Positions 9,420 to 14,023 of a stretch of 34,843 bases of DNA are shown here, in pieces. The DNA comes from Spirochaetales bacterium (GTDB taxonomy: Bacteria > Spirochaetota > Spirochaetia > Treponematales > Treponemataceae), in NCBI GenBank assembly GCA_016929605.1, contig JAFGIM010000059.1:1-34843 (forward strand). Direction: 5' to 3'. Position 1 is the first letter of the stretch; every line of letters begins with the position of its first letter. The notes under the pieces are model-generated. The model saw only the letters and a program-made list of their open reading frames with translations. It had not been told where the DNA came from and searched no databases. The translations under genes and the position numbers were made by a program.

Positions 9420-9533
9420 ATGAAGGTAAGAACGAGCGTAAAGCCCATATGTGATAAATGCAAGGTAATCAAGCGGAGAGGAATCGTCCGCATTATCTGC
9501 ATCAATCCCAAGCATAAGCAGCGCCAGGGCTGA
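9420..9533 (+). CDS. rpmJ: 50S ribosomal protein L36, zinc-binding form
   Basis: L36 is the smallest large-subunit protein and binds zinc. Translation of this frame gives 37 residues, [19 protein letters not shown] continuing to a final HKQRQG. Cys11, Cys14, Cys27 and the later His form the C-C-C-H zinc site, so this is the zinc form and not the zinc-free paralogue. GGGGG at 9409-9413 is six bases before the ATG. It lies directly between secY and rpsM, as in other spirochaetes as far as I recall. Confidence 0.97.
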
Positions 9534-10979: not shown

Positions 10980-12035
10980 ATGGCCCGCAAAAATCTGTTA
11001 AAAGGATTTAAAAAGCCGAAGGGTCTCACCTTCGAGCATGACGAGTCTACATCTGATTACGGAAAATTTGTGGCTTCCCCCTTCGAAACCGGCTTTGGAA
11101 CTACGGTGGGTAACACCTTGCGCCGCGTGCTTTTGTCTTCAATCCAGGGGTACGCGATTAGCGCGGTAAAAATTACCTCTTACGATGCAGACGGAGTACC
11201 GCACAACATCTCAAGCGAGTTTGAAACCATTCCTAATGTGGTGGAAGACACTCTTGAGGTGTTGAACAACCTTAAGCTGATCCGTTTACGGCTGCCTGAG
11301 GATGTTGACCAGGATACCTTCCTGTACGAATTTACCGGGCCGGTAAACGTTACGAGCGATATGTTCGCCCGCGACAGCCAGCTCGAAATACTGAGCGAAC
11401 CCTTCCATATCTTTCAGATGATGGAAGGTGGCAAAGTTGAATTCGAAGTTCAGGTCGATTTTGGTCGGGGATATGTACCTGCCGAAGTTAACGAGCGCTA
11501 TATCGAAGTAGTGGGAACAATTCCCCTCGACGCGATTTACAGCCCGGTTACCAAGGTAAAGTACGCCATAGAGCCGTGCCGCGTAGGCCAGCGAAACGAC
11601 TACGACAAGCTTAATCTGGAAATTTGGACCGACGGTTCAATATCTCCGGAGAACGCGCTTGCCGAAGCCGCTAAAATAATCAAGGATCACTTTTCCATAT
11701 TTGTCAATTTCAACGAAAATGAAATCGGCAAGGATGAGGATTTTGACGAGGAAGATGAGCGCGTTCGCCAACTGCTTAACACTCCGGTTGAGGAGCTTGA
11801 GTTGTCCGTTCGTTCGTCCAATTGCCTCAAAAACGCCAACATCAGGACAATTGGCGAGTTGACCAAGAAAACTGAGGATGATATCGCCAAGACAAGAAAC
11901 TTTGGCAAGAAGAGCCTTCAGGAAATCAGGGAAAAACTCCTTGAATGGAATCTTGGTCTCGGTATGACCGACTACAGTCACCTGAAGAACTCGATCAAAC
12001 TGCCCAAGCAGAAGGAAGAAACAGATGAAGCATAA
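10980..12035 (+). CDS. rpoA: DNA-directed RNA polymerase subunit alpha
   Basis: Alpha dimerises to start polymerase assembly and its C-domain touches UP elements and activators. The 351-residue product has the N-domain ([17 protein letters not shown], the dimer helix) and, after an acidic linker ([10 protein letters not shown]), the C-domain: [16 protein letters not shown] carries the Arg equivalent to E. coli Arg265, and [10 protein letters not shown] forms the second contact. It is about 20 residues longer than in E. coli, mostly at the C-terminus. It overlaps the rplQ start by 11 bases. AGAGGAG precedes the ATG. Confidence 0.98.
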
Positions 12036-12558
12036 GAATGGCTTTAATCCGCTTTCGCGCAATGCCTCACATCGCCGCGCGATGCATCGCAATATGGTTA
12101 CCTCCCTTTTCAAGTTTGAGCGCGTTACAACGACTCAACCAAAGGCCCTTGAGGTAAGACGGACCGCAGAAAAGCTGATTACACGCGCCAAAGTTGACAC
12201 CGTACACAATCGACGCCAGGTTGCCCGATTTGTACAGGACGAAGCGGTACTCGCCAAGTTGTTTACCGATATCGGTCCTCGAATGAAAGACCGTGCCGGT
12301 GGATATACCCGAGTTCTTAAACTCGGCTTCCGCGAAGGTGATGCTGCAGAAGTAGCTATCCTCGAACTGGTAGATTATCAGCTCGAAAGCGCCGACAAAG
12401 AAGATAAGAAAGCCAAGAAGAGCGCCGACAAACCGGCAGTAGAAAAAAAGGCCACCGCCTCAAAGGCTGGAGCGACTAAAAAAAGTGCTGGAGAAAAGAA
12501 AGCTCCGGCTGCTAAGAAAAGCGCACCCAAAAAAGCGGCCGAAGCCGGGGAGGAGTAA
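12025..12558 (+). CDS. rplQ: 50S ribosomal protein L17 with Lys/Ala-rich tail
   Basis: L17 lies at the tunnel exit. Residues 1 to about 118 are the normal family core, [20 protein letters not shown] and [21 protein letters not shown]. The remaining 59 residues are an added tail of Lys, Ala, Ser and Glu ([23 protein letters not shown]), histone-H1-like in composition and probably disordered. The usual family length is 115-130. The ATG lies inside the end of rpoA with GAAGGAAG upstream. It is followed by a zinc-ribbon gene only three bases after its stop. Confidence 0.96.
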
Positions 12559-12561
12559 GGT

Positions 12562-12738
12562 ATGTCCAAGGCACATCGCGGAAAGGGAATTCGCGGCAAT
12601 CCTAACAGGGGTCGCGGTACTTGCCCAGTTTGCAAAAAAGAGGGCGTAAAGGTTCTTTACGAGCAGGAAATCGACGGAGCAAAAACCGTTATCTGCAAGG
12701 TTTGCAAGGCAACCCTCAAGAATGGCAAAGCAAGCTAA
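12562..12738 (+). CDS. Small zinc-ribbon protein of the ribosomal operon (58 aa)
   Basis: The product is 58 residues, opening MSKAHRGKGIRGNPNRGRG, then TCPVCKK at Cys21/Cys24 and ICKVCK at Cys45/Cys48. Two CxxC pairs 20 residues apart, with a beta-type VKVLYEQEIDGAKTV between them, fit a zinc ribbon; the basic Gly/Arg N-terminus suggests RNA contact. It starts three bases after the rplQ stop, behind AGGAG (12551-12555), and precedes the operon terminator, so it is co-transcribed with rpoA and rplQ. I recall short zinc proteins after rplQ in treponemes but know no assigned function. A ribosome-associated or zinc-buffering role is inference. Confidence 0.85.
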   Translation: MSKAHRGKGIRGNPNRGRGTCPVCKKEGVKVLYEQEIDGAKTVICKVCKATLKNGKAS

Positions 12739-12756: not shown

Positions 12757-12786
12757 AAAACCGTCCACTCCGGACGGTTTTTTTTT
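12757..12786 (+). terminator. Intrinsic terminator of the ribosomal operon
   Basis: CCGTCC (12761-12766) pairs with GGACGG (12772-12777) across a five-base loop. The stem is extended by A-T pairs and followed by an uninterrupted T run to 12786. It lies 19 bases after the zinc-ribbon gene and is the first strong terminator since the window start. The A run before the stem would also favour use in the opposite direction. Confidence 0.92.
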
Positions 12787-12901: not shown

Positions 12902-14023
12902 ATGAAAGTATCCAAAATTGTGTGTGTCGCCCTTTTGGCTTGTGTTGTCATGGGTGTCCATGCAGCAGGACAGAAAGAGGCAAATGTAATCAAGATTGGT
13001 GTTGCTGGAGCCCATTCAGGCGATCTTGCGTCGTATGGATTGCCCTCGGTTAACGCAGCCAAACTTGTTGTGGAAGAATATAATGCCAAGGGCGGCATTA
13101 ACGGTAAGCAGGTAGAACTTGTTATTGTTGACGATCAGTGTAAGCCCGAATTGGCAACCAACGCCGCTTCCAAACTGGTGAGCGATCAGGTTGTAGCTGT
13201 TGTCGGTCATATCTGTTCCGGTGCCACCAAGAGCGCGCTTGGTATTTATAAGGACTCGGGAATTGTATGTATTTCCCCGTCCGCTACCACACCGATGTTA
13301 ACCCAGAGTGGAGAATATCCTAACTTCTTCCGCTCTATTGCTCCGGACGACGCCCAAGCTCGTTTGGCAGTAACCTTTATCAAGAACAATCTTAAGCTTA
13401 CATCTCTTGCTGTATTGCACGACAAGGGTGATTACGGCAAGGGCTTTGCCGATCTGGTTAAAGAATATGCCGAGAAGGAAGGCATTAAGGTTCTTTTGTT
13501 TGAAGGTGTTAACCCCGGTGCTCCCGATTATTCAGCCGTTGTTAACAAAATTGGGAACGCGGCTCCCGATGGCGTTGTATGGGGCGGTTACCACCCTGAA
13601 GCTTCAAAGCTCGTACAGCAAATGCGCGACAAGGGTATGAAGATCCCCTTTGTGTCTGACGACGGTGTAAAGGATAATACCTTTATCGAAGTTGCCGGAA
13701 AATACGCCGAAGGTGTATATGCAACCGGACCGATGGACACCAGCAAGCTACCGATGGCTGTTAAGGCTATTAACGCTCACAAGGCTAAATTCGGTGACGA
13801 GCCCGGTGCATTCTTTAAGGAAGCATATGCAGCGACTCAGGCCCTGCTTAATGCTATCGAGAAAGCTGGCTCTACCGACTATAATGCGATCTCTGCCGCT
13901 ATGCGCTCACAGTATGTTGATACCTCTCTTGGTAAGATCAGCTTTGACGCCAAGGGCGATGTAATCGGATTTGGTTTCTCCGTATTCCAGGTACAAAACG
14001 GTACCTATGTGGAGATCAAGTAA
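12902..14023 (+). CDS. livK: Branched-chain amino-acid ABC transporter, binding protein
   Basis: The periplasmic receptor delivers Leu/Ile/Val or related ligands to LivHM. The 373-residue product has an N-terminal export signal (MKVSKIVCVALLACVVMGVHA), most simply cut by signal peptidase I after residue 20 or 21. LLAC at 11-14 could instead be a relaxed spirochaetal lipobox, which would tether the protein to the membrane. The mature part is a Leu/Ile/Val-binding fold: IKIGVAGAHSGDLASYG, NAAKLVVEEYNAKGGINGK, then VVGHICSGATKSA and SPSATTPMLT. AGGAGG is five bases before the ATG. First gene of the liv cluster, separated from livH by an attenuator. Ligand preference cannot be read. Confidence 0.95.
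   Translation: MKVSKIVCVALLACVVMGVHAAGQKEANVIKIGVAGAHSGDLASYGLPSVNAAKLVVEEYNAKGGINGKQVELVIVDDQCKPELATNAASKLVSDQVVAVVGHICSGATKSALGIYKDSGIVCISPSATTPMLTQSGEYPNFFRSIAPDDAQARLAVTFIKNNLKLTSLAVLHDKGDYGKGFADLVKEYAEKEGIKVLLFEGVNPGAPDYSAVVNKIGNAAPDGVVWGGYHPEASKLVQQMRDKGMKIPFVSDDGVKDNTFIEVAGKYAEGVYATGPMDTSKLPMAVKAINAHKAKFGDEPGAFFKEAYAATQALLNAIEKAGSTDYNAISAAMRSQYVDTSLGKISFDAKGDVIGFGFSVFQVQNGTYVEIK

Follow-up and report, generated by a model that had tools for sequence, protein, structure and literature searches.

The window analysed here is a stretch of 34,843 nucleotides from a Spirochaetales bacterium (contig JAFGIM010000059.1). It carries a ribosomal operon in which 26 genes, from rplD to rplQ and including secY, rpmJ and rpoA, lie upstream of a short gene at positions 12562-12738 of the plus strand. 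Pfam identified 25 of these 26 genes, and bL36 was recognised by eye in the 37-aa ORF at 9420-9533. The directly preceding gene is rplQ (uL17; 12025-12558, plus strand, stop included), whose 177-residue product carries a Pfam L17 domain at residues 20-116; only 3 nt separate its stop from the short gene. A Shine-Dalgarno sequence, GGAGG (12549-12553, plus strand), lies inside the last codons of rplQ at a distance of 8 nt from the ATG, and purine-rich stretches of the same kind also precede the gene in the relatives whose loci were inspected. The gene is the last one ahead of a hairpin with a T-run that resembles an intrinsic terminator (12757-12781, plus strand), where the operon ends. It is present in a single copy in its own assembly, and ORF 12562-12738 is a genuine gene. 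The first-pass annotation had described a ribosomal operon ending in a 58-residue gene with its own ribosome-binding site, three bases after rplQ and before the terminator; the coordinates agree, and its count of 26 translation and polymerase genes is right, with secY among them.

Two minor features of the locus were recorded. Past its L17 domain, the rplQ product continues for about 60 residues as a C-terminal tail rich in Lys and Ala, and the L17 tail of a Treponema pallidum-like genome is also basic. Past the terminator a new transcription unit begins with a periplasmic ligand-binding protein (Peripla_BP_6; window positions 12902-14023).

The 58-aa product has the sequence MSKAHRGKGIRGNPNRGRGTCPVCKKEGVKVLYEQEIDGAKTVICKVCKATLKNGKAS, in which 14 Lys and Arg residues stand against 4 Asp and Glu (counted from the sequence). 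Its N-terminal basic tail (residues 1-19, MSKAHRGKG..RGRG; 12562-12618, plus strand) is followed by a predicted treble-clef zinc finger (residues 20-53; 12619-12720, plus strand) with the cysteines C21-x2-C24 and C45-x2-C48, 20 residues lying between the pairs. Both the Gly/Arg-rich basic start and the two CxxC pairs 20 residues apart had been noticed in the first-pass annotation and are found in the translation. Structure modelling, which had been proposed there as well, was carried out with AlphaFold2 from 43 sequences and gave a model with pLDDT 80 and pTM 0.58, the tail being the lower-confidence part. The model has a CxxC knuckle (21-24), a hairpin (strands 29-37 and 40-45), and a helix (46-53) beginning at C45/C48, and we read this order of elements as a treble clef. 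Foldseek searches with the model returned nothing convincing (best E 0.75). VIA-align listed 22 entries with Z 2.0-3.5, most of them FYVE, RING, LIM, GATA-like, and similar fingers; the bL28 chains 8cvm_w, 7msc_X, and 5v7q_X were among the 22 (Z 2.0-2.2, rmsd 2.2-2.5 Å, 35-37 residues). Z scores this low point to a shared arrangement at most.

The gene is encoded in 52 of 59 relatives, and in the other seven rplQ is undetectable too, so these are assembly gaps. Named relatives encoding it belong to Treponema, Brucepastera, Breznakiella, and Rectinema, and also to Spirochaetales; Breznakiella homolactica, Brucepastera parasyntrophica, and Rectinema subterraneum are among them. A scan of named genome contigs turned up 212 stretches that encode the protein; 80 were retained, 78 of them from spirochaetes and two labelled only 'bacterium'. 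The near alignment (43 rows) has 17 invariant columns, which include all four cysteines and the tail residues M1, K3, H5, R6, G7, and R18; reading frame and cysteines, the conservation of which had been put up for checking, are both kept in this near set. The median pN/pS was 0.26 across 3239 pairs, which indicates purifying selection. In one genus (g15; L009, L034, L036), the start codon is GTG in place of ATG.

Among close loci, uL17 adjoins the gene in 80 of 81, and the 81st stops at a contig edge with 181 upstream bases. In those 80, the end of uL17 falls anywhere from 114 nt ahead of the start of the 58-aa gene to 17 nt beyond it. For 27 further loci from the class, the gene was beside rplQ in 9/9 of the window's order and in 0/18 of other orders, where 774 to 2550 upstream bases were available for seeking rplQ. 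Adjacency to rplQ is therefore an order-level trait, and the family itself extends further; at three loci inspected from the other orders, the neighbours share no theme. The suggestion that the gene is co-expressed with translation genes is supported by the operon place in the window's order and weakened by the 18 loci elsewhere, none of which is beside rplQ, and by a second proteome in which the protein was not highly abundant.

At E ≤ 1e-6 the family was present in 260 of 346 genomes of the class and in 190/245 of the better genomes. It was detected neither in the Borreliaceae-like genomes (family f7, identified by the match of its query protein to the Borrelia bL38 chain) nor in members of several other rplQ-bearing families, and gaps in incomplete assemblies could account for some of the absences. 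Elsewhere in the phylum only 14 weak matches were found (E 3e-4 to 0.05), which were taken as chance. The out-of-class matches that were re-examined were partial or lay in longer or broken frames and were rejected as relatives, as was a BLAST hit in genome G100 (8.7e-4) that had no match with the profile.

In the T. pallidum-like genome (G030), uL17 is followed by a 65-aa frame and then by a GrpE-like one (GrpE recognised by eye). According to PMC5015957, TP0213 is L17 and TP0216 is DnaK, so that the 65-aa frame should correspond to TP0214. From this gene order, we infer that TP0214 is orthologous to the 58-aa gene. The first-pass annotation had held the gene to be too short for the usual ORF cut-offs, which does not apply generally, because T. 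pallidum annotates TP0214 if the gene order is a guide. In the same paper, TP0214 is an uncharacterized 7-kDa protein that ranks first by NSAF (19.6), above L34 (13.1), S18 (12.5), and L17 (9.4), and the top rank is repeated in PMC9200625. A later proteome reports TPANIC_0214 as not highly abundant by MaxLFQ (PMC10600179). Small Lys/Arg-rich proteins are described as poorly detected after trypsin in PMC9200625. At the transcript level, TP0214 is tabulated with rpsO, rpsS, and rpmC among differentially expressed genes in PMC8525777.

The family occurs in two forms, one with four cysteines (C+) and one in which the first Cys is kept and the others are replaced by T, S, and A or G (C-). The scheme C-x2-T...S-x2-A/G was found in 29/29 distinct C- sequences, the fourth position being A in 16 and G in 13. 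The C- form includes the T. pallidum protein, from which three of the four ligand cysteines are gone, as well as proteins of families f14, f17, f22, and others. The first motif was CxxC in 139 and CxxT in 8 of 148 loci, with redundant loci kept; one more, missed by the pattern, reads CxxC on inspection. No genome among the 346 of the class carried both forms. Two strong matches were present in G464 alone; both are C+, and one of them sits on a contig of 3.1 kb that could be a contaminant. The C- form may have arisen once or several times: in a quick tree built without the ligand columns, the T. pallidum genus stood apart, but a single C- clade was not rejected (p 0.638). C+ and C- variants have been documented for S14, S18, L28, L31, L32, L33, L36, and S4 (PMC3087516), and the 58-aa family shows the same pattern of four conserved cysteines in one form that are disrupted in the other.

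Zinc status was compared with that of bL28. A search of 88 class genomes found bL28 in 83, own genome included; the five genomes lacking a bL28 match were left out. Where bL28 was C- (14 genomes), the 58-aa gene was absent in 10, C- in 2, and C+ in 2. Where bL28 was C+ (69 genomes), the gene was absent in 9, C- in 1, and C+ in 59. The C+ form was thus missing from 12/14 genomes with C- bL28 vs 10/69 with C+ bL28. With families as units, it was missing in 6/8 vs 4/28 (Fisher p 0.0024), with five mixed families counted as C+. Both comparisons are post hoc and control kinship only roughly. The single genome with C+ bL28 and a C- form, which breaks the link, is the T. pallidum-like one with TP0214. 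The co-variation fits a shared ribosomal zinc economy.

In the model, the 58-aa protein shares with bL28 a CxxC knuckle, a beta hairpin, and a helix that opens with the second CxxC. The C- schemes are also close: the first Cys is kept in both, the second position is T in the family and T or S in bL28, the third is S, and the fourth is A/G and A/T, respectively. In the 14 C- bL28 proteins, inspected by eye, the first position was Cys in 14, the second T in 10 and S in 4, the third S in 14, and the fourth A in 12 and T in 2. As differences, bL28 has a long basic loop that separates its knuckle from its hairpin, and it lacks the 20-residue N-terminal tail. The genes are separate, and the window's own genome has both. 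The window protein had no hit to Pfam PF00830 (bL28) at E values of 10 or less, the family was not listed for six C- members, and the profile comparison with bL28 was not significant (hhalign E 0.04-0.5). 'bL28-like' is therefore a resemblance and not a membership. The bL28 proteins of Borrelia-like genomes (L266, L269, L335-L337) are C- and have an odd inserted GGG/GQH loop.

The 58-aa protein is probably an unrecognised, stoichiometric ribosomal protein of Spirochaetia that Borreliaceae and certain other families have lost; we give this reading a probability of roughly 60%. The gene, which closes the S10-spc-alpha cluster in the window's order, would give rise to a small treble clef folded around one zinc ion. 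The invariant Arg/Lys/Gly-rich tail would thread into rRNA, and the finger would rest on the subunit surface and aid assembly and stability. Some lineages may have a cysteine-poor version with the same fold and no zinc, as for bL28, bL31, bL33, bL36, and uS14. A more specific form of the reading is evenly poised, namely that this is an unrecognised, Spirochaetia-specific ribosomal C+/C- zinc family with TP0214 as a member, perhaps a stripped-down bL28-like treble clef that joined the ribosome and was lost once bL28 gave up zinc. The first-pass annotation had regarded a lineage-specific ribosomal protein as attractive; the place beside rplQ, conservation, selection, the C+/C- forms and their co-variation with bL28 zinc status, the first place by NSAF, the transcript's listing with ribosomal genes, and the treble-clef model with its weak bL28 matches support this, and the second proteome, in which the protein is not highly abundant, speaks against it. 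Against a ribosomal protein, it also counts that the gene can be lost, and that the Borrelia ribosome structure (PMC10618245) comes from a lineage lacking it. Literature searches returned no earlier paper calling the gene ribosomal, none for the tail sequence MSKAHRGKG, and none for Treponema with bL38; Treponema is not mentioned in LSTrAP-Crowd.

The main rival, which we consider unlikely, is a ribosome-associated non-structural factor for assembly, hibernation, or quality control that binds rRNA via the basic tail and zinc finger. The loss from whole families and the stand-alone genes in other orders would suit such an accessory factor, and the conflicting abundance reports would suit a variable level. 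Against this, forms whose C+/C- state follows the zinc status of bL28, together with first place by NSAF in one proteome, would be expected more of a stoichiometric component.

An improbable alternative is a zinc protein that binds RNA or DNA in a generic way, with no fixed complex. In its favour, the protein resembles many unrelated zinc fingers weakly and belongs to no characterised family. Against it stand the very high conservation of the tail, the single scheme by which the cysteines are replaced, and the link to rplQ throughout the order. Quite improbable is an RNA-polymerase or transcription accessory protein that resembles an Elf1 zinc ribbon and is placed after rpoA-rplQ for balanced synthesis. 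Elf1-type ribbons share a four-Cys zinc-binding module with the 58-aa protein, rpoA is two genes upstream, and Elf1 (Pfam PF05129) is the best single Pfam match of the window protein (E 0.0099). The score of 16.4 bits is far under the cut-off of 29.8, however, so that membership was rejected; the match spans only residues 20-52, with the KAHRG tail outside, it is shared by only 2 of 43 members at E ≤ 0.1, and outside the window's order the gene no longer neighbours rpoA-rplQ. Very improbable is a secreted antimicrobial miniprotein, the role suggested for TP0214, which an earlier study put forward as an antimicrobial peptide according to PMC10600179. The gene closes a ribosomal operon and its zinc finger is conserved in relatives from many sources, and basic composition alone would presumably make such candidates of many ribosomal proteins.

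Returning to the ribosomal reading, bL37, bS22, and similar lineage-specific ribosomal proteins are likewise short, basic, and easily missed, and unlike the 58-aa protein they are not known to be zinc fingers. PMC10618245 describes bS22 and identifies bL38 of the Borrelia ribosome as BB0162. Known from Borrelia and Flavobacterium, bL38 would match the 58-aa protein as a small basic spirochaete ribosomal protein found late, and differs from it in gene and sequence. Its orthologue in the Borrelia-like genome G279 (P0002) matches 8fmw_Ai (E 3e-24), and the bL38 query matched 230/392 genomes of the phylum (E ≤ 0.5), the window's own at 1.3e-7; 16 of these matches are weak and come from other classes. 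Identity with bL38 was thus ruled out, the bL38 orthologue lying at a different locus of the same genomes, own included. As the two co-occur, the 58-aa gene is a further candidate that is invisible in the Borrelia ribosome. If the ribosomal reading is true, a major bacterial class gains one more ribosome component, TP0214, among the most noticed uncharacterized proteins of T. pallidum, gains a role, and the Borrelia ribosome structure is an incomplete template for treponeme ribosomes. Lineages that have lost the zinc ligands or the entire gene may then serve as a natural series for studying how ribosomes gain and drop proteins.

Two further ideas were rejected. The protein is not, as a general rule, a stand-in for the long uL30 of Borrelia (bL37 place): uL30 was found in 49/50 genomes, with three Borrelia-like frames of 104-110 aa, and among the other genomes the open uL30 frames of those with and those without the 58-aa gene overlap. 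Nor was its presence tied to a 23S rRNA feature, as no column went beyond clade permutation (35% of 1287 arrangements were as good) among the 23 of 35 genomes that gave 23S, with the first ~400 nt uncovered and the T. pallidum-like row consisting of Ns in its 5' part.

Two observations on variants conclude the comparison. Orthologues of bL38 (BB0162) are almost class-wide, and those of the window's order form a more diverged type (L165:5126-5290, own genome G000). In six loci of the 58-aa family (L055, L066, L090, L105, L117, and L131), the zinc finger is followed by long Ala/Glu/Pro-rich C-terminal tails, which bring the protein to up to 173 aa in total.
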